Shown in pieces: positions 1,604 to 45,096 of a stretch of 56,139 nt of DNA. The stretch spans positions 1 to 56,139 of the forward strand of contig CACLEI010000005.1 in NCBI GenBank assembly GCA_902605935.1, given 5' to 3'. The stretch's first letter is position 1. Each line of letters starts with the position of its first letter. The notes beneath the pieces were generated by a model. That model saw only the letters and a program-made list of their open reading frames with translations, had not been told where the DNA came from and ran no database searches. The position numbers were made by a program, and so were the translations under genes. The stretch comes from an uncultured SAR86 cluster bacterium. GTDB lineage: Bacteria; Pseudomonadota; Gammaproteobacteria; Magnimaribacterales; Magnimaribacteraceae.

Positions 1604-2839
1604 ATGGAATTATTTAAATCTCGTCTTTTGAGTGAAGGCAGTATTTGGCATATAGGGAGTCTTAGCGCAGTCTATTTATCTCAAGGACTTTCTGGAGGTA
1701 CTCTATTTGCCTTAACAACCTATCTTGTATCTATCGGTGCTTCCGTAAAAGATATCTCATTATTGTTATCTATAACAATGGTTCCGTGGACACTTAAAGT
1801 ATTTCTCGGGCCAATTATTGATTCATTTACTTTAAGTAGATTCGGTAGAAGAAGATTTTGGATACTGATCAGTCAGGTTGCAATGATGTTAGCTGTCTCA
1901 CCTTTAATCTTTATTGAGGTGACACAAGTTAACTTCATCCTTATAAGTTTATTGACGCTTCACAACACGTTTGTAGCAATATCAGATATTGCTATAGATG
2001 CCCTTGCTGCAGATAGTTTGCGTAAAGATCAAATGGCTAATGCAAATGGTTTCATGTGGGGGAGCAAGACCTTAGGTAGAGGTTTTGGGATGGCTTTGGC
2101 CACTTCTATTTTTTATGGGTATGGAGTTAATGAAGGATTCTTAGTCTTGATTTTACTGATGTCCTTAGCTTTCCTATTTCCGATTTTTTCAAAGGAGCTT
2201 TCCCATAAGGCTGGGCAGCAAGAGCAGTCCTATAAAGATCGACTTACACTTAATGAATTACTTAAAGGAGTTAGCCAAAGCTTATTAAATAGAAGTGCAT
2301 TTGCAGCAATAACATTTATGCTTTTCTCAAACATCGGATATGGAATATTTGATGTAATTTACAACGAATTCTATATTAAAGTTCTGGGTTGGACTGGAGA
2401 GGATATAGGCTCTTTGCGGCCCTATGGCATGTGGTTAGGAGGATTGATAGGTTTATCTGCAGGTTTATTAACTATCTATATTTCAAAAAGATTTCTTCTA
2501 CTATTTTTTATTACCGGACAAGCTTTTATCTTTCTCGCGGTAAGTAGTTTTAGTGCTGAGACTTCTGATCTGATTTCATCAATAGCTATCATTGGTGTAG
2601 ATGCAGTTGACGCAGGATGGTCAGTTTTAATATTTTCTATTTTAATGGCACTTTGTACTTCAAATACCAGCGCGACTAACTTTGGGATTTTTATGGGTTT
2701 TGGGAATATATCCATGTTGATAGGAAACAACATCGCTCCCCTAGTTTTAGGTTCAGGAGATTATGGCTTTGCTTTTATAATTGCTGCTTTAACGCTAATT
2801 CCTTGTTGGCTTTGTGGTTACTATTTAACTAAGACTTAA
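1604..2839 (+). CDS. AmpG-like MFS transporter
   Basis: This is a 411-residue inner-membrane protein with about twelve hydrophobic segments. The loop between segments 2 and 3 reads RFGRRRFWILI, the basic loop typical of major facilitator proteins, and the arrangement DIAIDALAAD in segment 4 resembles the AmpG/PucC-like group. AmpG proteins import muropeptides in enteric bacteria, but many distant members move other solutes, so the substrate is unknown. There is no clear Shine-Dalgarno sequence before the ATG. The 3' end overlaps the stop region of the convergent permease gene by four bases. Confidence 0.85.
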   Translation: MELFKSRLLSEGSIWHIGSLSAVYLSQGLSGGTLFALTTYLVSIGASVKDISLLLSITMVPWTLKVFLGPIIDSFTLSRFGRRRFWILISQVAMMLAVSPLIFIEVTQVNFILISLLTLHNTFVAISDIAIDALAADSLRKDQMANANGFMWGSKTLGRGFGMALATSIFYGYGVNEGFLVLILLMSLAFLFPIFSKELSHKAGQQEQSYKDRLTLNELLKGVSQSLLNRSAFAAITFMLFSNIGYGIFDVIYNEFYIKVLGWTGEDIGSLRPYGMWLGGLIGLSAGLLTIYISKRFLLLFFITGQAFIFLAVSSFSAETSDLISSIAIIGVDAVDAGWSVLIFSILMALCTSNTSATNFGIFMGFGNISMLIGNNIAPLVLGSGDYGFAFIIAALTLIPCWLCGYYLTKT

Positions 2840-5130
2840 TCAAATTTTCTTTTATCAAATCTTACAAGTAGATTTGGGAATAGAAAGAAATCAATAATTA
2901 GCGCGAAAACAAAAGCGAGTATAGAAAACTGGGCAAAATTATGCATTGGAAGAAAGCTTACAAGATGCAGAACTGAGAAGCCTAGAGCTAGAATGACTGT
3001 CATAGCTATTAAAGCAAAGCCAACCGCCTCAAAGGCATATAGCACTGCATCTTCTGGACTCTTATTCAGTTCTTGCCTTGCTAAATCATATTTACTGAGA
3101 AGGTGCACTGTGAAGTCAACGATGATACCTAAAGTAGAACCCATTCCAACTGCGACCATGAAATCTATTTGACCATCTATGATTGCCCAGATACCGAAAG
3201 CACTCACAATTGGAAGGATATTAGGAAAAGATGAAAGAAATCCAAAATAAGCTGATCTAAAGAAAAATCCTATTACAGTTATGATTAAGGCCATACCTAT
3301 AGTCACACCAATCAATAAAGAGTTCACTACGGCTTCCATCAAGTAGACAAAAATAACTCTGAATCCAGCAGGCTTTGAAATCGTACTTTCAAGATTGTTA
3401 TCCTTAAGATATGTAGAAACCTTTTTATCAAATACAAGATATTCTTTAGAGGTCATTTCTCTTAATGTTGCAGCTATCCTAGTAGAGCCTCTATCTTGGC
3501 TTATCGAGGTATTAAGATCCAGCCCCATAGGAAGAGACATTTCATAGAAGAAGAGGTATTGAGAGGATAACTCTTGATCTTCAGGTATAACTTTCATCTC
3601 TAAATCATCTCCATGCATGCTTTTGTTGAGTGATTTCATTGTTCTTGCTAGAGATGTAACATGAGTAACTTCATTTTGTCTCTCTAGCCACATGGAAAAA
3701 TTATCAAGGCTTTCAAGAAATTCTGGATTTGAAACACTGCCATTATCAGACGTAGCCTTGAAACTAATGGGGAAGCTTGCTCCAAGCTTTTTATCTAGCC
3801 ATAAAACATCGGGTCCATAGCTAGTGTATTTCTCTGAATACATTTGAGTAGGATTCATATCTAACTTATTCATAGGAATTAATAAAATCATTAGTAAGCT
3901 AGACAAAGGAATTATCAAAAGAAAAGCCTTTTTATTTGACAGACTAAAAATTGCAATCTTTCTAGACAAGTTAACTTGTTGTTGAGTTGATGTCGGAATT
4001 TTTACGTTTAAAAATGATATGAGAGGAGCGATAAAAAAGATTGTGTAAAAGAATGCAAATAAAACACCAATAGAAATGCCATTACCGAGATCCCTTAAAG
4101 GCTCCACATCAAGAGCATTGAATGACAAAAATCCAATACAAGTAGTAACTGTAGTCAGAAAAAGAGGTTGAAGATTCAATTCTAAACTTTTTATCATTGA
4201 GTTTTTACTAGTTTCTCCTCTGTTGCGTTCCTGAAAATAGATCGCAAAAAGATGAATGCAGTCAGCTAGTGCAAGGGTAATAATTAAAACTGGGTAAGTA
4301 ATTACCATTTGATTAAGCGCATTACCCAAAAGACCGACTGAACCGAAGGTTGATCCAATTGTGAGGATGATGACTCCAAAGGTCGAAAAAACTGCAGCAA
4401 GACTCCTTAGTACAAATAATATAGACAAGAAAATAACTAAAAACATTAGACTCATGACCGGTGGTATTTCTGCCTCAAGCATTTTTGGATCCATATATTC
4501 CTGATAAGGATTGCCTAATATTCTTATGTCTAGTTCAGGATTTTCTTTCTTAGCCTTATCAAGATATTCCAGAACATAATCAATAGTCACTTCTAGGTTT
4601 GCCTCCTTATTGGGCTGAGGGGGATCTATAACTAGGTTTATGATTGAAGTCCTCTTATCTTTAGAGATTACCGAGCCATATATAGCTTCCTCGCCTTCTA
4701 CTAATAAGGATTTTTCCTTTATTTCCTGATCGGTTAGAAGAAGAGCATTTTCAATGAAAGGCTCTACTAATAAATCATCATCAACTGATCGAACATAAGA
4801 AAAGTTTGTAAGGCTATCGACCCTTACTGAAAATGGAGTCGTCCATGACAATTCAGTAAGTTTTTCTATTACATTTAAAGTTTCTTTCTTGAAAATTGTC
4901 TCTTTCCCTCCACTTATCGCGATAATTAAACTATCAGTTGGAAGAAACGTATCATCTATATCTTCCATTAACTCGGTAGCAGGATGTCCTTTCGGGAAAA
5001 ATGTTTCTAAATCAGGATTGAATGTTAATTTAGATAGACCCTGAGATAATCCTAAGAATAATGCGATGCAAAGAACTATTGATAATTTCCTATATTCGAT
5101 TATCAATCTAGCTAACACCTTTTTATTCAT
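2836..5130 (-). CDS. RND/MMPL superfamily exporter permease
   Basis: This is a 764-residue membrane protein with the layout of single-chain RND permeases of the MMPL/COG1033 type. One N-terminal membrane helix is followed by a large periplasmic domain (about residues 45-220), a cluster of helices (about 220-390), a second periplasmic domain (about 410-590) and a final helix cluster. The motif DCIHLFAIYFQERNRGE after a helix is typical of this group. Such proteins move lipids or other hydrophobic molecules across or out of the inner membrane. It is the last gene of a minus-strand run, five bases after the barrel-like protein gene, and probably works with it and the LolA-like protein. The cargo is unknown. 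Confidence 0.88.
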   Translation of the reverse strand: MNKKVLARLIIEYRKLSIVLCIALFLGLSQGLSKLTFNPDLETFFPKGHPATELMEDIDDTFLPTDSLIIAISGGKETIFKKETLNVIEKLTELSWTTPFSVRVDSLTNFSYVRSVDDDLLVEPFIENALLLTDQEIKEKSLLVEGEEAIYGSVISKDKRTSIINLVIDPPQPNKEANLEVTIDYVLEYLDKAKKENPELDIRILGNPYQEYMDPKMLEAEIPPVMSLMFLVIFLSILFVLRSLAAVFSTFGVIILTIGSTFGSVGLLGNALNQMVITYPVLIITLALADCIHLFAIYFQERNRGETSKNSMIKSLELNLQPLFLTTVTTCIGFLSFNALDVEPLRDLGNGISIGVLFAFFYTIFFIAPLISFLNVKIPTSTQQQVNLSRKIAIFSLSNKKAFLLIIPLSSLLMILLIPMNKLDMNPTQMYSEKYTSYGPDVLWLDKKLGASFPISFKATSDNGSVSNPEFLESLDNFSMWLERQNEVTHVTSLARTMKSLNKSMHGDDLEMKVIPEDQELSSQYLFFYEMSLPMGLDLNTSISQDRGSTRIAATLREMTSKEYLVFDKKVSTYLKDNNLESTISKPAGFRVIFVYLMEAVVNSLLIGVTIGMALIITVIGFFFRSAYFGFLSSFPNILPIVSAFGIWAIIDGQIDFMVAVGMGSTLGIIVDFTVHLLSKYDLARQELNKSPEDAVLYAFEAVGFALIAMTVILALGFSVLHLVSFLPMHNFAQFSILAFVFALIIDFFLFPNLLVRFDKRKFD

Positions 5131-5135
5131 ACCTA

Positions 5136-6302
5136 TTAATCACCCATGTAATATATAAGTTCAAATCTCAAGAAATCGTCCTCTTTATAAGCCTGAAAAA
5201 GTTTGAATTCTTCATTATCCTCATTTGTATCATCGAAATAAAATCCTTCAATAGATATGGAACAACATATGCCCAACCTTCTAGATGCTTCCAATAGAAA
5301 TCCTAGTTCTTCGGATTTTTCATCATAGATTATCCCCGATAATATTTGAGTATCGGATGTATCATTAATTGTAAGTCTTGTACCTATTACTGCTGGCGAG
5401 CTTGGGAGTCGATCATCATGATTTGCCTCTACAATCCATCCTAGATCAAGTCTAGAACCAAAAATACCCACTTGCGTGTACTCAAAACCATATGTTGCAG
5501 CTGTAAATCTATCCTCCTGACCGGACCTAGAGATAATTTCTGATTTAATAGCAAAGCCTCCCAATAAATATTGGAATTCAAATCCCGTTTGATCAATCAC
5601 CTCATAAAGAGGAACTAACTCTTTCAGATTTTCATTCGTTAGAATAAACCTAGGTTCTCTTGAAGTTCCAGAAAAGTGAGAAATTGCTACTTCCAGTTGA
5701 TCAAAATAATTGCTCCACCTAAAGGCAAAATCCATTCTTTTATTTTTTGCAGCGGATAAGTAATGAGGTCTATCAGTATCAACGATCATCGGCTGTCTGA
5801 GTCTTCCGTCATAACCTGAGAAAGTCCTTTCCCGAAAACCAAGCAAAGCATAGAAATCTATTAGGCCCCAATTTTCTTCGAATGACACCTTAACCATAGG
5901 TTGACCGAGTTTATCCTCGCCATCTAAACTTTCAACAGCATCAGTTTGATTGATTATATCTACTCTATGAGTTGTTTCTGTTACACCCCAAAATTCTTTA
6001 CTTACCCCATATTTGATTTCTTTATCTTCTAGAATGTTGATTAGGTATAGCTCTTGTATGTCGACTAAGTTTCTCTCGGTGTCTATATTGTCTTTCCTTA
6101 ACTTTGGTTTAAAGTGGAAAATGGAATCTTCGTTCTCATGAAATATTTCAGGTGATAATGTGAATGAGGAATGATTTTTTTCTTGTCCTTGAAGGCCAGA
6201 ATTAAAGAAATATCTATTATCAAAAGAGTACTCTCCAATAATCTCTGCGTGAAGGGCAGGGCATAGGAAAGCAATAAATACTCCGAGAAATTTATAAGAC
6301 AT
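5136..6302 (-). CDS. Probable outer-membrane beta-barrel protein of an MMPL/LolA-like cassette
   Basis: This 388-residue protein begins with a signal peptide (SYKFLGVFIAFLCPALHAE, cleavage expected after AHA-like HA near residue 19). The mature part is rich in alternating polar and aromatic residues, for example residues around FEENWGLIDFYALLGFRER and RLDLGWIVEAN, and ends in a strand with an aromatic Tyr near the C-terminus. This pattern fits a porin-like barrel. It lies directly between the LolA-like gene (stop and start codons abut) and the RND permease gene, so the three probably form one trans-envelope pathway. I do not recognise a named family with certainty. Confidence 0.65.
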   Translation of the reverse strand: MSYKFLGVFIAFLCPALHAEIIGEYSFDNRYFFNSGLQGQEKNHSSFTLSPEIFHENEDSIFHFKPKLRKDNIDTERNLVDIQELYLINILEDKEIKYGVSKEFWGVTETTHRVDIINQTDAVESLDGEDKLGQPMVKVSFEENWGLIDFYALLGFRERTFSGYDGRLRQPMIVDTDRPHYLSAAKNKRMDFAFRWSNYFDQLEVAISHFSGTSREPRFILTNENLKELVPLYEVIDQTGFEFQYLLGGFAIKSEIISRSGQEDRFTAATYGFEYTQVGIFGSRLDLGWIVEANHDDRLPSSPAVIGTRLTINDTSDTQILSGIIYDEKSEELGFLLEASRRLGICCSISIEGFYFDDTNEDNEEFKLFQAYKEDDFLRFELIYYMGD

Positions 6303-36817: not shown

Positions 36818-37552
36818 ATGGATATAAGACAGATAGTTATGGTCTCAGCTCTAAGAGATCCAATTGTTAATAGTCTATGTGAGTTGTTTGAATGCGAAGT
36901 TGCTTTTAATGATCCTGGAGTTGGCCATTTTGGTCTTGAAAATGCCGTTATACCTATAGGAACAGATTTTCTAGAGGTAGTTAGTCCGAAGGAAGAAAAT
37001 ACAACAGCTGGGAGATATTTGGAAAAGAGAAATGGCGATGGCGGTTACATGATTATAATTCAAGTAGATGACTTTAAGGATTCAAAAGGCTTAGTAGAAA
37101 AGAATAATATAGGGGTTGTTTGGGAAACAGACCTACCCGAAGCAAAAGCTATACATCTTCATCCTAAACAAATGGGAGGGGCAATACTTTCTCTTGACTG
37201 GATGAATCCTAAGGAAAGTTGGAAATGGGCTGGACCGGAGTGGACAAGTCATATATCTGGACCTATTACAGGTGTAGATGGAGTTCAAATTCAGTCTGAT
37301 AATCCTGAAGCTATGTTTCAAGACTGGCTTGAAGTTTTAGGCAATCCCACATCAAGTAAAGAAAAGTTAAAAATATTTTTAGATGACACCTGGTTAGAAT
37401 TTATTTTGGATAGTGATGGAAGAGGTCCTGGGATTTCAGCTTTTAGCCTCAAGGCAAAAGATCACGATATTATTAATAAAAGAGCTGCAGAGTTAGGCTT
37501 TATAAGTGAAGGTATGATTTGTTTAGGCGGATTAAAGTTCTATCTAGTATGA
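36818..37552 (+). CDS. VOC family (glyoxalase-like) protein
   Basis: This 244-residue protein appears to be built from paired beta-alpha-beta modules of the vicinal oxygen chelate fold. QIVMVSALRDPIVNSLCELF and FGLENAVIPIGTDFLEVVSP form the first module, and the second lies near residues 145-244. It resembles members of unassigned function that act on small molecules with a divalent metal. No signal peptide is present. The stop overlaps the start of the lipidated protease gene as ATGA, which is an odd pairing of a cytosolic with an exported protein. Confidence 0.82.
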   Translation: MDIRQIVMVSALRDPIVNSLCELFECEVAFNDPGVGHFGLENAVIPIGTDFLEVVSPKEENTTAGRYLEKRNGDGGYMIIIQVDDFKDSKGLVEKNNIGVVWETDLPEAKAIHLHPKQMGGAILSLDWMNPKESWKWAGPEWTSHISGPITGVDGVQIQSDNPEAMFQDWLEVLGNPTSSKEKLKIFLDDTWLEFILDSDGRGPGISAFSLKAKDHDIINKRAAELGFISEGMICLGGLKFYLV

Positions 37553-40017
37553 AGAAAAGTATTCCATGCTTTTTAATGGTTTTTCTCTTGTCTTGTGGGG
37601 GTGGCGGCGGAGGCAGTTCGAGTTCTCCGGTTCCCCAAACTTCCACTGGAAGCGAAAGTACTCAAAGCACAAATACGTCCTCGTCTTCAACTTCCACAAC
37701 AACAACTACTAGTTCTTATAATCCTAATCTACCTACTTCAGGTTCAATTTCGCTTACCGGCAATTTTGATGCCGACAAAATGACCTATGAAGACTCCTCA
37801 GAATATAGTGATCAATATGGTTTAGGTCTAATCAACGCTTCATCTGCTTATGCGAGAGGAGCTACAGGAAGAGGTGCAATTATAGGTATCATGGATTCCG
37901 GCGTTGATACTTCTCACCAAGAGTTAAACAGCTCCAATAAACTATTACCGGAAAGTTATTTAGTCTATCCAGATAGATCACCAACAACTGATGAAAAACG
38001 ACATGGTTCTCATGTTGCAGGTATCGCCTTGGGCGAAAGGGATGGATCTGGAATACATGGAGTTGCATTTGATGCTCAGTTATTTTTTATCTCTATAGAA
38101 CTAGGAACTGCAGGTGATACTTATGACCCTGCAACTATTGATTCGTCAGTAGACTACACTGGAATCGATAATAGTTGGTCTCAACTTGAAGCTGAGTTTG
38201 TTTCTAAGGAGGTTACAGTTGTTAATGGAAGTTTTGGCTATCAAGGTAATATAAATGACTATACCGAAGAGAATATAAGGCAAGCATTTCCAAAGACTAT
38301 TGAAGTATTGGCACAATCACAAAAAGCAGATGAAAATAAAACAATTTTTGTTTGGGCGGCTGGTAATGGTGGCGGCTATGCAGATCAAGGAGTTGATTAT
38401 TCAAGTCCAGAGGTATTCGGAGGTTTGGCGTACCTACTACCGGAACTAAGAGGAAATACCGCTGCTGTTGTTTCTGTCGATGAGGATGGCTCTATAAGTA
38501 GTTTTTCTAATAGATGTGGTGTTGCACAAGACTATTGTTTGGCAGCTCCTGGAAATTCCATCTTGAGTGTATATGCTCAAGATGAACCCACAATTGATTC
38601 TTATGGAAGAGCTAGTGGTACTTCAATGGCAGCACCTCATGTTTCAGGCGGAATAGCTCTTCTCGCTGATTATTTTGATGGACAGTTAGGTAATACAGAA
38701 ATACTGCAAAGACTTTTTATTACAGCAAATAAATCAGGTATCTATTCAGACTCTGAAATTTATGGTCAAGGTCTAATGGATTTGGATGCTGCAACAAAAC
38801 CAGTAGGCACTGCAATGATCGCAACGGCCGGTGCATCTCTTTCTGCCTTAAATCTCAAAGAAGAGGGAAGTTATATAGGAATAGTAGGTCCAGCATTTGG
38901 TAATGTTATCTCTAAGAAATTAAGCAAGTTATCTTATGTAGTTTTTGATGAATTAGGTGCTCCTTTTGAGAGATCTTTCAATGATCGCATATTGAATAAC
39001 ATACCTAATATAAGTTGGCTGACATCTTTTCAACTCAATCCAAGTAAACGGGTTTATGAGAGATCAATTGCAATGAAAAATGGTTTCATTCAATTAGGCA
39101 TTAATGATGGTTATTCTCAAGAACATAATCTTCTATCTTTGTGGGCCGATACTGAGAATAAATTAGCCTATTTTTCATTTGAACAAAGTCTTACCCAAAA
39201 TAGTAAATTATTTTTTGGCAGCGGAACAAGTCCTAATACCTATCTTTCATCAAAAAAAGGCTTCAAATATAAAGGAATCCCTTTTCTGGAGTATTCATCT
39301 GATGGATCTTATGTTGGTATGGATATCGATATGCCTTCGAAAAAATCTATGCTTTTTTCATTTTTTCAAGGCTATCATCGAGATGGTAAAAGGTTCGTTA
39401 ATCAAATAGGAGATAGCAAAGGTATTCTTTTAGAGGTTAGAGATTATAAAGAAATGTCTTCAATCTCATATCAAGTAGGGCTCACAACAAATAATTCCAA
39501 TTTATTAGGCATATCTTCAGAAGGAAGTTTTGGACAGGCTGACAAATCTCTTACTTCTTTTATTGGTGTAGACTTCTTAAATAGAGTAAAAGACACTTTT
39601 TTTAAAAGTTCATTTCATGTAGGTATGACTTCTTCAACTTTCAATCAAATGGGAATGATAGAAGATATAGAGGACACATACTTCTCATCTTTTGATATAG
39701 GAATTTACAAAGATAATATATTCACTTACTCAGATTCATTAGGAGTGGAAGTGTATCAACCTCTGAGGTCAGAACGAGCTAATATTAATTTCTCTCTTCC
39801 TGTTGGCCGGACAAAGGACAGACAGATAGTCTTTCAAAACCTTAATCTAGATTTAACTCCTTCAGGAAGACAAATAAATTCTCAATTAGTTTATAACACG
39901 AAAAGTCGTAACCTCTCTTTCTTTGGAAAGATAGGTTTAGTGTCTAACGAATTTCATCAAAAAGAAAGTAGAGTGAAGCCATACTTTCAGTTCGATGTTG
40001 AATTGAACCTAGAATAA
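37549..40017 (+). CDS. Lipidated subtilisin-like (S8) protease with autotransporter-like C-terminus
   Basis: The 822-residue protein begins with a lipoprotein signal (MVFLLSC, Cys16). A low-complexity Gly, Ser and Thr linker follows (about residues 17-66), then an S8 protease domain with Asp116 in IMDSGVD, His152 in HGSHVAG and Ser359 in GTSMAAPH. The oxyanion Asn is in WAAGNGGG. From about residue 420 to the end it is beta-rich, with alternating residues ending FQFDVELNLE, like an outer-membrane barrel. Lipidated subtilase autotransporters such as NalP have this layout. I chose the ATG at 37549 over an upstream TTG at 37519. Confidence 0.85.
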   Translation: MKKSIPCFLMVFLLSCGGGGGGSSSSPVPQTSTGSESTQSTNTSSSSTSTTTTTSSYNPNLPTSGSISLTGNFDADKMTYEDSSEYSDQYGLGLINASSAYARGATGRGAIIGIMDSGVDTSHQELNSSNKLLPESYLVYPDRSPTTDEKRHGSHVAGIALGERDGSGIHGVAFDAQLFFISIELGTAGDTYDPATIDSSVDYTGIDNSWSQLEAEFVSKEVTVVNGSFGYQGNINDYTEENIRQAFPKTIEVLAQSQKADENKTIFVWAAGNGGGYADQGVDYSSPEVFGGLAYLLPELRGNTAAVVSVDEDGSISSFSNRCGVAQDYCLAAPGNSILSVYAQDEPTIDSYGRASGTSMAAPHVSGGIALLADYFDGQLGNTEILQRLFITANKSGIYSDSEIYGQGLMDLDAATKPVGTAMIATAGASLSALNLKEEGSYIGIVGPAFGNVISKKLSKLSYVVFDELGAPFERSFNDRILNNIPNISWLTSFQLNPSKRVYERSIAMKNGFIQLGINDGYSQEHNLLSLWADTENKLAYFSFEQSLTQNSKLFFGSGTSPNTYLSSKKGFKYKGIPFLEYSSDGSYVGMDIDMPSKKSMLFSFFQGYHRDGKRFVNQIGDSKGILLEVRDYKEMSSISYQVGLTTNNSNLLGISSEGSFGQADKSLTSFIGVDFLNRVKDTFFKSSFHVGMTSSTFNQMGMIEDIEDTYFSSFDIGIYKDNIFTYSDSLGVEVYQPLRSERANINFSLPVGRTKDRQIVFQNLNLDLTPSGRQINSQLVYNTKSRNLSFFGKIGLVSNEFHQKESRVKPYFQFDVELNLE

Positions 40018-41148
40018 TCCTTGAGCTGCATGAGCAGCTAATTCTTTCTCAGATTGTTGGTCTATTTCCTTAGATGACTCTAGTGGCTTATTGAGTTCTG
40101 CCCAATCAATTTCAAATTGACTATCTGCATCCATATACGAAGTAAGATTAAGCTTTTCGTAAAGTGGAAGTACTTTATCTGTGAGAAGACCGATTCTTTT
40201 CAGGTTTGGCATAACTCTGCTGAACAAGAGATTCGTAAACATGTCCTGAGTTTCATCATTGACCAACATTTCTCTAATTTCTTCTTCACTTATATTAAAC
40301 CACCTTGCAGGCAATTCAGTATTGATGATTCGATCTCTCATGACTACACAGGCTTCATAAGCAAACATTGCTCTATCTTCTACCTCTTCTTCTGAAAGGG
40401 TGCTTAAGAAATCTTCAAGATAATTCACTCCAAAGGTAACATGTCTAGCTTCATCTCTAATGACATAATGCACCAGTTGTCTTAGCAAGGGGCAATTTGA
40501 AGTTTCTTTAGTTGTTTGAAAAGCTGCCAGTGCTAATCCTTCGATTATTATTTGCATGCCTATGAATTTAAGGTCCCATCTTGGATCCGAAAGTATTTTA
40601 TCGATCAAGGATTTTAGATTTTTGTTAATTGGATATTCAATTCCACTTACTTCTTTTAAATATCTAGCAAAAACTTCGACATGTCTCGCTTCATCAAAAG
40701 TTTGTGAAGCTGCATAAAGTTTAGCTTGGTAGGTTGGGGCACAAGATACTAGTTGTGAGGCAACTAATAATGCGCCTTGCTCACCGTGAAGAAATTGACT
40801 CAATGACCAAGCACTATCATGTCGCATATACTCTATTCGCTCATCTTCAGGTAGTGCAGCAAGAGGGCCTTCCATTCTAGCTATCAACTCCGCTTTCACT
40901 GGAGGTTCATCTTTTTTTATAGCTTTCGACCAGTCTAGGTCTATAGAGCCATCCCAATTTAGTTTTTTACCTAATTCATATAATTTCTTTATACGAGTAT
41001 CAGCATCAGTATAGTCCCAATTGTAGTGTCCAATTAAGGGTGTGTTGAATATTTCGACGACGTCTTCAATATTTTCTTCACTGAAACCTTCTGGAAGATC
41101 AAACTCCCTCGGATCTACAGGGGGATTTTCAACAACTTTTATCTTCAT
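40009..41148 (-). CDS. Diiron (ferritin/R2-like) protein, second of a tandem pair
   Basis: This 379-residue helical protein contains two E-x28-DEARH motifs: Glu in GEQGALLVASQLV with DEARHVEVF, and Glu in IIIEGLALAAF with DEARHVTFGV. This spacing matches the E-x28-37-DE-x2-H rule of ribonucleotide reductase R2-like diiron oxygenases such as AurF. It has no signal peptide. The protein is closely related to the next gene upstream, which it follows by seven bases. The substrate is unknown. Its stop overlaps that of the convergent protease gene by nine bases. Confidence 0.82.
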   Translation of the reverse strand: MKIKVVENPPVDPREFDLPEGFSEENIEDVVEIFNTPLIGHYNWDYTDADTRIKKLYELGKKLNWDGSIDLDWSKAIKKDEPPVKAELIARMEGPLAALPEDERIEYMRHDSAWSLSQFLHGEQGALLVASQLVSCAPTYQAKLYAASQTFDEARHVEVFARYLKEVSGIEYPINKNLKSLIDKILSDPRWDLKFIGMQIIIEGLALAAFQTTKETSNCPLLRQLVHYVIRDEARHVTFGVNYLEDFLSTLSEEEVEDRAMFAYEACVVMRDRIINTELPARWFNISEEEIREMLVNDETQDMFTNLLFSRVMPNLKRIGLLTDKVLPLYEKLNLTSYMDADSQFEIDWAELNKPLESSKEIDQQSEKELAAHAAQGLF

Positions 41149-41155
41149 ATCGTAA

Positions 41156-42265
41156 TTAAGCAGTTTTGGAGGAATAATCTAGGGGTTGAGATAGTTCATC
41201 CCAATCAATGCTTCCATTATCTTCTAGATCTTGGAATTGGAGAATATCCATCTCTTCGTATTTTTCTATGGTCTTATCTGTTAATAAACCTATTCTTTTA
41301 AGATTTGGCATGATCTTAGAAAATAATAGATTATTAAAAAGTCTTGATGTTTCAGATTGATTCAGGACTTGCTGTGCCTCTTCAACATTCCATCCGTAAT
41401 GTTTCATGACGTTATCAGATCCAAATCTATTTCTCATTACCACACATGCTTCATAAGCAAAATCGGCTCTATCTTCTTTCTCTTCATCAGATAATGTATC
41501 TACAAATTCTTCTAGATAATTCACACCAAATGTTACATGTCTAGCTTCATCTCTAATTACTAGGTAAAATAGATCCTTGAGTAATGGGTCCATCGCAGCA
41601 GCTCTTTGTCTTTCAAACGCAGCGAGAGCAAGTCCTTCAATAATAATTTGCATTCCAATGAATTTGAGATCCCATCTTGGATCAGAAAGTATTTTATCTA
41701 AAAGTAATTTAAGTCCTGGCATAACTGGATAATTCCATCCAATTCTCTCTTGGAGATACTTATTAAAGACTTCAACATGGCGCGCCTCATCAAAAGTTTG
41801 GGAAGCTGCATAAAGCTTAGCATTATATGTAGGTGCGCATGAGACCAGCTGAGAAGCTACTAGCAATGCTCCTTGTTCGCCATGTACGATTTGACTCAAA
41901 CCACTTGCTAATAAATGCCATGAACACTCAATTTTCTTTTCCTCAGGAAGGTCATCATAGGGTTTGAAACCTTTGAGCTGTTGAAATTCAGGATTAGTTG
42001 CCCATTGAGTGTGTGGATATGGATCCTTTGACCAATCTAGATCTAAAGTTGCATTCCAGTTTAATTTTTTACCGAGTTCATAAAGCTTTTTGAGACGATT
42101 ATCTGCATGCGTATAGTCCCAATTATAAGTCCCTGTTAAAGGCGTTTGGAAGATCTCGACAATATCTTCTACGTCTTTTGGTTCGAGTTTATTTTCTAGA
42201 TCATCATCATGATCATCAAAGTACTTGATATCTGATGGACAGTTTTCAACTTTTGTTATTCGCAT
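41156..42265 (-). CDS. Diiron (ferritin/R2-like) protein, first of a tandem pair
   Basis: This 369-residue paralogue of the following gene has the same two E-x28-DEARH sites, and the sequence around them is almost the same (ASQTFDEARHVEVF and VIRDEARHVTFGVNYLEEF). An N-terminal segment (VEIFQTPLTGTYNWDYTHAD) is also shared. A duplication is clear, with differences concentrated in the C-terminal third. It likely forms a dimer or heterodimer with its partner and catalyses an oxygen-dependent oxidation. It follows the CobT-like gene by 80 bases on the same strand. Confidence 0.82.
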   Translation of the reverse strand: MRITKVENCPSDIKYFDDHDDDLENKLEPKDVEDIVEIFQTPLTGTYNWDYTHADNRLKKLYELGKKLNWNATLDLDWSKDPYPHTQWATNPEFQQLKGFKPYDDLPEEKKIECSWHLLASGLSQIVHGEQGALLVASQLVSCAPTYNAKLYAASQTFDEARHVEVFNKYLQERIGWNYPVMPGLKLLLDKILSDPRWDLKFIGMQIIIEGLALAAFERQRAAAMDPLLKDLFYLVIRDEARHVTFGVNYLEEFVDTLSDEEKEDRADFAYEACVVMRNRFGSDNVMKHYGWNVEEAQQVLNQSETSRLFNNLLFSKIMPNLKRIGLLTDKTIEKYEEMDILQFQDLEDNGSIDWDELSQPLDYSSKTA

Positions 42266-42345
42266 TTATATTTCCTAAAATTTTATGTAGTTTACATTAA
42301 ATCAGTCAAAACTGCTTTTATTGCAACACATAAAAGTAAAATTCT

Positions 42346-44103
42346 TTAATCTACTTTAAAAAGATCTGTTAACTGTTCTAACATTGCTCCGCCAAGCTCT
42401 TCAGCCCTATGAATGGTAACAGCATTTTTATAGTAGCGAGTTACGTCATGACCAATACCAATTGCTATAAGATTAATATCTGATTGTGTTTCGATTGAAT
42501 GTATTACTTGTCTTAAATGAAGATCTAAGAAATTAGTTGGATTAGTTGATAAGGTGCTATCGTCTACCGGAGCTCCATCAGAAATTACCATGAGTATCTT
42601 TCTCTGTTCAGTTCTTCTTGCGAGTCTATCATGAGCCCAAATTAGCGCTTCTCCATCAACATTTTCTTTTAGCAAACCTTCCCTGAGCATTAATCCAAAG
42701 TTTTTTTGTCCTCTTCTCCAAGGTGTATCAGCCGATTTGAAAATAATATGTCTAATATCATTTAACCTTCCTGGATTTTCTGGCTTACCATTTTCCATCC
42801 ACAATTTTCTACTCTCTCCTCCCTTCCATTGCTTAGTTGTGAAGCCCAAAACCTCAGTCTTTACATTACAACGCTCTAGGGTAGTGCTTATTATGTCGGC
42901 ACAAATTGCCGCTACTGTCATAGATCTACCTCTCATTGACCCCGAGCTGTCTACCAGAAGAGAAACGCTCGTATCTCGGAATTCAGTATCCTTCTCTATT
43001 TTGTAAGTTAAAGGGGTAAGAGGATCGGTAATGATTTTATGTAAACGCGCTGAGTCTAACATTCCTTCATCTTTATTATATTCCCAAGATCTATTTTGTT
43101 GAGCCATTAAAAATCTTTGTAATCGGTGAGCTAATTTAGAGATTGTAGCCTTACTGGGACCCATAAGTTGATCAAGATGTTTTCTAAGCCTCTGAAGCTC
43201 TTCGGGGCTGCATAAATCCTCTGCTTTGATTTCCTCGTCAAAATTTCTTGTATATACTTTATATGAGAATGTTGAAGTCTGACCTACAAGAGATTCAAGC
43301 CATGATTGATTAGTCATGATCTCCTGATTTTCGTCTACAATTGCATCTTCATCTATGTCTCCAGAATCCGCATCAGTCTCTTCATCACCTTCTTGATTAT
43401 CTTGTTCTGTTGAGCTCTCAGATTCTTGAGATTCTTCATCTTCTCCGCTTTCAGAAGCTGATTCTTCTTCTTGTTCATTCTCATCTTCTAAATCACTTTC
43501 TTCTTGTTCATTTTCTTCTTGATCAATATTTAGACTCTTTAAAAAGTCTTCAGCAATCTCTTGAAATTTAGTTTGGTCATTCAGTGATTCTTTTAATCTT
43601 TCTTTGAACTCTGTTTCTTGATTATCAAAAACCTTGCCCCAATATTTCAGAAATAAACTGGAATTATTTGATTCAATGTTTGGAAGGCATGAATTTCTTA
43701 GCCAAGTTTCTAAAGCAATTTCTAGATGATCTTCGTGATCTTCAAAGCTTTCATATAATTTACATTTATCTTCAAATTTGGATTTGATATTTGTTGCTAT
43801 GCCTGGATAATTCATCGACCCAAGTATTTCTACCCGTGAATCCTCCATAACTTTAATTAGAGAATTAACTTTTTCGTTGTTTGCGGTAATCCTGACCGAT
43901 TTATCTCTATATTTTTCTACACATGCAAGAGAATCAGCTTTTCCTCTGTAAGCTGTTAACTCTTTAAGCGTTTTAGGAGGATGAGGCAGTGATGAGCCCA
44001 TTCCTCCAAAATTAATTTCTAATTCTTTGTTGCCTGATATTGCTCTAGTTGCTGCTGTAATCGCTTCTTTTATGGTCTCAGACTGAGAATTTTTTGATGC
44101 CAT
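42346..44103 (-). CDS. cobT: CobT-like VWA-domain protein
   Basis: This 585-residue protein resembles the CobT subunit of aerobic cobaltochelatase. It has an N-terminal region with YRGKADSLA, a very acidic Glu- and Asp-rich linker (about residues 195-265) and a C-terminal von Willebrand A domain with the MIDAS motif [10 protein letters not shown] near residue 384. With a CobS-type AAA+ partner it would form a remodelling machine. No cobN or cobalamin genes are visible here, so the target may be another metalloenzyme. It begins nine bases after the CobS-like gene. Confidence 0.85.
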
Positions 44104-44112
44104 TTTGGCTAC

Positions 44113-45096
44113 TTAAACCTTTTCTACTTCTTCAGCAATAGAATCTGCGGTTTCAGAATCAAAACACCTTTGGTAGTACTCTGCAATTATAACCCTCTCG
44201 GTTTCATCACATTTATTAAGAAAGGTTATTTCAAAGGACTTATTAAGGTCACTAAAGATTTTAAAATTTTCTGCCCAACTAATTACTGTTCTTGGAGACA
44301 TTAAAGTTGATATATCTCCATTTGCAAAACCCTGCCTAGACAGATTAGCTACAGAAATCATATTTCTTGCAACTTCTTGACCTTCTTTGTTATCCAGACT
44401 TGGAACTTTTGAAAGAACAACCTTTAATTCTAGTTCTGGATCAAGGTAATTTAGGGTTGAGACAATGTGCCATCTATCCATCTGCCCCTGATTTATCTGC
44501 TGTGTTCCGTGATAAAGGCCTGATGTATCTCCTAAACCTACTGTATTTGCTGTTGCAAATAATCTAAATCCTGAATGGGGAGAGATAACTTTATTTTGAT
44601 CTAGAAGAGTTAATTTACCCTCAACTTCTAGCACTCTCTGAATAACAAACATCACATCAGGTCTTCCTGCATCATATTCATCAAAAACTAGTGCAGTTGG
44701 AGTCTGAAGAGCCCATGGAAGAATACCTTCTTTAAATTCAGTTATTTGTTTTCCATCTTTTAAGGTTATTGCGTCTTTGCCTAGTAAATCTATTCTACTT
44801 ATATGGCTATCTAGATTAACTCTGATGCATGGCCAATTCAGTCTGGCAGCTACTTGTTCAATGTGAGTTGATTTACCTGACCCATGATAACCTTGGATCA
44901 TTACTCTACGGTTATGAGAAAACCCAGCAAGTATGGCTAAAGTGGTATTTTTATCGAATTTATAAGATTCATCTATACTAGGTACATATTCATTTGGTTC
45001 TTTGAAGGCCATTACCTTAAGGTCAATATCTATATCAAATATTTTTCTTACATCTATCTCAAGATCTGGGATTTCTTTATCGGTTTTATTATTCAT
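44113..45096 (-). CDS. cobS: CobS-like AAA+ ATPase
   Basis: This 327-residue MoxR-type AAA+ protein has Walker A GYHGSGKST (residues 69-77), Walker B LVFDEYD (136-142) and the sensor segment LFATANTVGLGDTSG. The N-terminal region (FKEPNEYVPSIDESYKF) and DLLGKDAITLKDGKQ are typical of CobS. CobS and CobT energise cobalt insertion by CobN; similar AAA+/VWA pairs activate other metalloenzymes. It is the first gene of a minus-strand run that ends in the two diiron genes, and diverges from cysE. Confidence 0.88.
   Translation of the reverse strand: MNNKTDKEIPDLEIDVRKIFDIDIDLKVMAFKEPNEYVPSIDESYKFDKNTTLAILAGFSHNRRVMIQGYHGSGKSTHIEQVAARLNWPCIRVNLDSHISRIDLLGKDAITLKDGKQITEFKEGILPWALQTPTALVFDEYDAGRPDVMFVIQRVLEVEGKLTLLDQNKVISPHSGFRLFATANTVGLGDTSGLYHGTQQINQGQMDRWHIVSTLNYLDPELELKVVLSKVPSLDNKEGQEVARNMISVANLSRQGFANGDISTLMSPRTVISWAENFKIFSDLNKSFEITFLNKCDETERVIIAEYYQRCFDSETADSIAEEVEKV

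Follow-up and report, generated by a model that had tools for sequence, protein, structure and literature searches.

A cobS-cobT-dFe run in a SAR86 contig

The stretch of DNA analysed here (the window) comprises 56,139 nucleotides of contig CACLEI010000005.1 from an uncultured SAR86 cluster bacterium (assembly GCA_902605935.1, order Magnimaribacterales). It possesses a run of four minus-strand genes at positions 40009 to 45096, separated by gaps of 9, 80 and 7 bases, as the original prediction made from the sequence alone had described. The genes encode, in this order, a CobS-like AAA+ ATPase, a CobT-like von Willebrand factor A (VWA) protein and two R2-like proteins of the AurF family (PF11583). 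The latter are given the working name dFe, with dFeA and dFeB as the copies of the window. The host genome (0.85 Mb in 37 contigs) contains a third dFe paralogue, which is solitary and lies on a separate contig (G000:C14).

The first gene, cobS (44113 to 45096), encodes 327 amino acids (aa) with CobS_N and AAA_5 domains, and cobT (42346 to 44103) encodes 585 aa with CobT and CobT_C domains, the latter scoring 320 bits. Pfam (CobS_N, CobT, CobT_C) places both in the cobaltochelatase subunit families. CobS has a long match to the solved CobS 9ujv (485 bits) and CobT a match of 544 bits to solved CobT, close in the VWA domain; this C-terminal VWA part is also the most conserved portion of CobT. 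With 520 bits for TIGR01650 (CobS) and 626 bits for TIGR01651 (CobT), both at E below 1e-150, the proteins remain under the curated equivalog cut-offs of 558.55 and 759.05, respectively. The Walker A motif of CobS (GYHGSGKS, aa 69-76, 44869 to 44892) and the metal ion-dependent adhesion site (MIDAS) motif of CobT (DSSGS, aa 385-389, 42937 to 42951), both located by motif reading, are intact, as is Walker B. The pair shares with the cobaltochelatase CobNST the adjacency of CobS and CobT with intact ATPase and MIDAS motifs, but differs by its scores under the equivalog cut-offs, by the lack of CobN and CbiC/CobH, and by its tie to R2-like proteins. With the MoxR AAA+/VWA pairs NorQ/NorD and CbbQ/CbbO it has in common an AAA+ protein plus a VWA-MIDAS partner beside a probable metal enzyme gene. 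In contrast to these it belongs to the CobS/CobT lineage, and its candidate client persists without the pair in relatives; the phmmer scores of the window's CobS are 25.7 bits for solved NorQ and 30-35 bits for CbbQ. An anti-phage system was considered and rejected, as PADLOC yields weak IetA matches on the AAA+ domain alone.

Both dFeA (41156 to 42265, 369 aa) and dFeB (40009 to 41148, 379 aa) pass the PF11583 cut-off of 29.6 bits, with 58.8 and 46.8 bits, and are 57.6% identical to each other. Each protein contains the motif E-x28-DEARH twice, with its six metal-ligand positions intact. The predicted ligand motifs of dFeA, from alignment and motif reading, are E130...DE160ARH163 (41777 to 41878) and E210...DE240ARH243 (41537 to 41638); those of dFeB, from motif reading, comprise aa 123-156 (40681 to 40782) and aa 203-236 (40441 to 40542). 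E130, E160, H163, E210, E240 and H243 are invariant across 37 aligned dFe rows, and these four carboxylates and two histidines would bind the metal. The AlphaFold2 model of dFeA (predicted local distance difference test score 81) has an R2-like ferritin fold. The 50 matches listed for it include R2lox, AurF and R2/NrdB chains, with Z of about 21-23 and 11-19% identity, in a structural re-comparison that took in Foldseek's own candidates.

The p-aminobenzoate N-oxygenase AurF resembles dFe by the Pfam score over the cut-off and by fold (2jcd_A, Z 22.1 over 291 residues), but identity is 12%. AurF possesses a seventh ligand, a third histidine four residues ahead of the last glutamate; residue 236 of dFeA, four residues ahead of E240, is a valine. 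R2lox and the R2 subunit of class I ribonucleotide reductase are top structural matches of dFeA with an identical ligand order, but the best NCBIfam R2lox model reaches 30-36 bits with dFe proteins, far under its cut-off of 194. R2lox contains a Mn/Fe cofactor and a Tyr-Val cross-link. As Mn/Fe enzymes are among the best structural matches, the label "diiron" given to the dFe proteins is an assumption; they are probable two-metal enzymes. Thioesterase genes occur near dFe in SAR86, in Alcanivorax and on one Streptomyces plasmid, and weakly suggest a substrate of acyl-CoA or acyl-carrier type.

Solitary SAR86 dFe copies have housekeeping surroundings (replicative helicase and CTP synthase, named by sequence reading), and the neighbourhoods of dFe in alphaproteobacteria and Alcanivorax are mixed. 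In 10 of 11 Alcanivorax-family loci (L318-L321, L324-L330) two small thioesterase genes precede dFe, either immediately or with one predicted open reading frame (ORF) between; the two examples scanned are 4HBT by Pfam. In the window itself, the 80-base gap upstream of dFeA contains one promoter-like site on the minus strand (TTGACT-18-TAAAAT, 42280 to 42309); the region holds 20 such sites, a number at chance level (17.3 in shuffles). An S8 subtilase ORF with a TTG start (37519 to 40017) is convergent with dFeB, and the two ends overlap by 9 bases.

Linkage within the order and cobalamin genes

Our sample of the order comprises 151 genomes of 0.7-1.8 Mb from 22 genera and four families (f1 to f4); seven genera belong to f1, 10 to f2 and one to f4, which has the smallest genomes. 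PMC11582366 likewise gives SAR86 four families and 22 genera, with one fast-clock family of about 1.05 Mb; f4 would by size correspond to its CHAB-I-7 and f2 to its 10-genus 'Suzuki'. The agreement is inexact, as CHAB-I-7 comprises four genera there and no family apart from 'Suzuki' exceeds four, against seven in f1. dFe is present in 142 of the 151 genomes and in 40 of the 40 most complete ones, CobT in 114 and 33, respectively, in matched frames without stops. All 36 cobT loci read, from f1 (8), f2 (17) and f3 (11), contain cobS, cobT and dFe on a single strand and in that order, with median gaps of 3 and 55 bases. The short-gap three-gene block is kept in 35 of them; in the remaining locus, L109, a 337-aa ORF without Pfam match stands ahead of dFe. 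Upstream of the block a cysE-like gene is found in f1 and f3 and thioesterase or short-chain dehydrogenase/reductase (SDR) genes in f2, and the downstream genes differ. The gammaproteobacterium G195, outside the order, has three dFe copies, one of which is divergently oriented to cobST at a distance of about 530 bases. Its CobT clusters with those of the order (support 100/99) on a long branch, and its placement outside all of them receives 86/60. The co-occurrence that the original prediction proposed to look for in relatives is thus a stable linkage of cobST to the dFe family in three families and one outside lineage. The pairing is real and old, chance is excluded, and cobST-dFe is a conserved but under-described gene association.

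Tandem dFe genes are found in f1 and, with a short second copy, in G056 of f2. In a tree of 75 dFe proteins, 19 solitary copies of f1 to f3 and one G195 copy form one clade, the linked copies of the order fall into three groups and the f4 copies are a deep branch; the branches of the outgroup rows are very long, and the root is poorly placed by them. Several terminal branches of CobT are long. In L067 (5186 to 5797), with similar genes in four further loci of the third family, the linked dFe is followed immediately by a 2-oxoglutarate-Fe(II) oxygenase gene.

PF02514, which comprises CobN and the Mg-chelatase large subunits, is found in one of the 151 genomes of the order, in none of the 40 most complete and in none of the 114 with CobT; CobN is likewise not found in the window's own genome, which is 50.68% complete. 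PF02570 (CbiC/CobH) is absent from all 151. The cobalamin search covered these two families, and control searches were positive in 5 (PF02514) and 7 (PF02570) of 14 named genomes. The sole CobN match (L061, G094:C55) is fragmentary and close to the end of its contig; it comes from an f4 genome that is 64% complete and has no CobT match, and may be mis-binned. A cobalamin operon is rejected on these counts, and from the gene content a role of CobS/CobT in a cobalamin pathway of SAR86 seems very unlikely. The earlier reading of the pair as an orphan outside a cobalamin pathway is supported, and cobN together with a cobalamin pathway in the same genome, one half of what had been named as refuting the maturation idea, was not encountered.

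A proposed remodelling pair with a likely but dispensable client

CobS and CobT without the chelatase subunit CobN would represent an ATP-driven remodelling chaperone encoded in an old operon. The CobS ring may pull or twist CobT, by analogy with NorQ/NorD, and the VWA domain of CobT would grip a client and let metal enter a buried site; in SAR86 the R2-like two-metal protein whose gene follows cobT is the best candidate for this client. Such help would be useful rather than obligatory, because relatives without the pair keep the enzyme. NorQ/NorD, according to PMC13036017, insert iron into a buried site via remodelling, pulling on their partner. The window's pair has the corresponding components, namely an AAA+ protein with Walker A and B, a VWA protein with MIDAS and a probable metalloprotein encoded alongside, the last in 36 of 36 loci. 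Further in favour, the block is kept while the next-outer genes partly vary by family, and in G195 the adjacency recurs in a different arrangement. Disruption of cobT in Caulobacter has a fitness effect under ethylenediaminetetraacetic acid (EDTA), and cobT is among the copper-fitness genes, according to PMC12004947; this is consistent with a metal-related role of CobT in Caulobacter, of which the genome tested (G664) has CobT and dFe and no CobN.

We tentatively favour an AAA+/VWA pair that remodels proteins or inserts metal independently of cobN, and for which the linked R2-like protein is a likely but dispensable client; this reading we place not far below an even chance. Its parts differ in strength. 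By analogy, the orphan pair is probably a protein-remodelling machine; linked dFe as its main client in SAR86 stands a little under even; and metal loading of dFe is what we infer as the outcome of CobST action. A broader version, in which CobS/CobT would generally be a cobN-independent metal-insertion chaperone with cobaltochelatase as one use, specialised in SAR86 and the related lineage to the two-metal sites of R2-like oxidases, appears rather unlikely. To our knowledge, no AAA+/VWA chaperone for R2-like oxidase clients is on record, and no literature link between CobST and an R2-like protein was found in the open-licence papers searched.

A considerable body of observations weighs against dFe as the client. 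Within the order, all 36 loci likewise have an acyl-CoA thioesterase gene near cobST, and linkage is weaker evidence than apparent because wider synteny in the order is also conserved. The solitary dFe paralogue of the same genomes has no cobST pair beside it. In f4, CobT is present in none of 21 genomes and dFe in 19 (one weak match). Locus L100 (G070, 1922 to 5698) displays the order dFe, SDR, thioesterase and HemE-like gene, the arrangement seen in f2 loci such as L076 once cobT-cobS is taken out, and no remnant of cobST at usable significance was detected in the four f4 loci read. The gene order of L100 has the appearance of a natural in-place deletion of cobST with the enzyme kept. All ligand residues are kept in the f4 copies aligned (L098, L100); the dFe neighbours in the other three f4 loci differ. 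In favour of dFe as the client, on the other hand, three of the most complete genomes outside f4 (n=36), namely G057, G059 and G072, all >90% complete, lack CobT and have one dFe each. The lone dFe of G057 and G059 belongs to the solitary clade, so that these two genomes lack both cobT and the linked dFe, possibly by an assembly gap. At the contig ends of G057 (far end of contig 11 excepted) no flanking genes of the block were found, and a bin gap is possible.

Outside the order, near full-length CobT is found in nine genomes of our class sample (274 genomes), not counting six with weak or VWA-part matches (G196, G292, G347, G372, G380, G411), of which G292 has CobN. CobN is absent from seven of the nine, and six of these seven lack a dFe of the SAR86 kind; a weak partial match (32% over 114 residues) is seen in one of these six, G269. 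In the phylum sample (349 genomes), 114 genomes have CobT, 105 of them outside the class, with the alphaproteobacterial Caulobacter, Phenylobacterium and Zavarzinia among those named. dFe is matched in nine of the 105, in no case near cobT, and not in the other 96. Five of the nine matches (G446, G487, G628, G664, G667) exceed 50% identity. All nine dFe genomes outside the class in this sample have CobT as well, as do most of the alpha-type records given below, a weak support for the link because CobT is common in such genomes anyway.

From a scan of named genomes, which found 579 relatives, 80 dFe loci were taken, mostly from relatives of Caulobacter, Phenylobacterium, Hyphomonas, Zavarzinia and Alcanivorax, and cobS or cobT is present within <=8 kb on each side in none of the 80. 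CobT was searched across the whole genome in 50 of these 80 dFe genomes, for which completeness is unstated. Of 31 presumed alphaproteobacterial records 29 have it, as do one record labelled Hydrogenophilaceae and, by a weak match, one labelled Phormidium. It is found in none of 17 gamma-type genomes whose dFe is 58-63% identical to the Caulobacter query. The 17 consist of 11 records of Alcanivorax, Alloalcanivorax or their family, four labelled "Gammaproteobacteria bacterium", one Moraxellaceae and one "bacterium". G163, listed as 100% complete, also combines a dFe (51% identical) with the lack of CobT. The contig labelled Phormidium willei (L275) contains a dFe that shares 74% identity with that of Caulobacter and probably originates from a companion bacterium.

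The original prediction had the pair maturing the dFe proteins as part of a self-contained system. It is supported in part: the stable linkage holds and a cobalamin role is very unlikely. A need for the pair is not supported, given dFe without CobT in f4, the gamma-type genomes and G163, and neither is self-containment. In view of f4, the apparent L100 deletion and the 17 CobT-less gamma-type genomes, we do not take obligate maturation as shown, although the linked SAR86 copies may still depend on the pair. Outside the order cobST also occurs apart from dFe, the other half of what had been named as a refutation. The biochemical idea is plausible, with substantial counter-evidence.

Alternative roles and orphan pairs elsewhere

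CobST may instead be a cobN-independent AAA+/VWA chaperone with another, unlinked main client common to alphaproteobacteria and some gammaproteobacteria, the adjacency to dFe being inherited. We regard this as a serious possibility, though well short of even. Among CobT-bearing genomes outside the class, CobN is present in 54 of the 80 tested and absent from 26, in addition to the seven of nine gammaproteobacteria mentioned above, which with one exception lack this kind of dFe. Two genomes without CobN, G491 and G724, have bolA and dnaJ-domain neighbours of cobST and not dFe; in G413 the pair stands beside XdhC/CoxI, near a molybdopterin hydroxylase; and the 17 gamma-type genomes retain dFe without CobT. 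The Caulobacter EDTA effect and copper-fitness listing (PMC12004947) fit an unlinked client as well. Such a client leaves the one-strand, short-gap block in 35 of 36 loci, kept while outer neighbours partly change, and the rearranged adjacency in G195 less well explained. The curated cobaltochelatase cut-offs are not reached by the pairs of SAR86 and G195 but are both exceeded by that of G491, which lacks cobN, and by these scores the former could perhaps be a specialised clade.

Scavenged cobamides already contain cobalt, which counts against a service of the pair to corrinoids, either by cobalt insertion or retention in such cobamides or by loading into B12 enzymes via another large subunit. 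The closeness of CobS and CobT to genuine cobaltochelatase subunits would agree with this role, as would one orphan cobST (L146) beside MttB-like and corrinoid-protein genes (by reading) and the wide occurrence of btuB in SAR86, as given in PMC11582366. With PF02514 absent from 150 and CbiC/CobH from 151 of the 151 genomes of the order, and with a metal-carboxylate protein as the linked partner, we consider it improbable. A functionless, drifting relic of a lost cobaltochelatase is less probable still, to the point of being scarcely credible: the lack of CobT in f4, several long CobT end branches and the scores under the curated cut-offs are in line with decay, but the pair persists in three families with streamlined genomes, including 33 of the 40 most complete, in matched frames without stops, and the motifs of the window's pair are intact.

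Genes annotated as cobaltochelatase subunits frequently occur where CobN is lacking (26 of 80 CobT-bearing genomes outside the class, seven of nine gammaproteobacteria), and their label as B12 genes misleads B12 ecology. For homologues of ChlI/ChlD, PMC9227772 calls the role of small and medium subunits without the large one unexplored. SAR86 provides a concrete candidate client, dFe, for orphan CobST, and Caulobacter is a tractable genus for testing.

Orphan pairs elsewhere have varied surroundings. In L243 (4018 to 8093, G491) and L246 (4343 to 8431, G724), both from the genomes without CobN, bolA on the opposite strand and a dnaJ-domain gene are located upstream of cobS-cobT. A dnaJ-like gene is present in L247 too, and bolA is found by Pfam in L243 and L246 alone. 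Of 34 loci scanned, most of them short upstream, 17 contain a J-protein-like gene ahead of cobS, the two query loci among them. These neighbours suggest for CobST a function apart from B12, either as a chaperone or in relation to iron. At L146 (G413), XdhC/CoxI and the molybdopterin hydroxylase subunit are identified by Pfam, and the setting is presumably comparable to that of CoxD/CoxE. Two orphan-cobST gammaproteobacteria have homoserine-dehydrogenase-like genes nearby, with SDR and thiolase genes, and the neighbours of the remaining ones are mixed (all by reading). In L244 (3379 to 8192, G475), cobS and cobT are separated by two genes, one of them DNA cytosine methyltransferase-like (again by reading).

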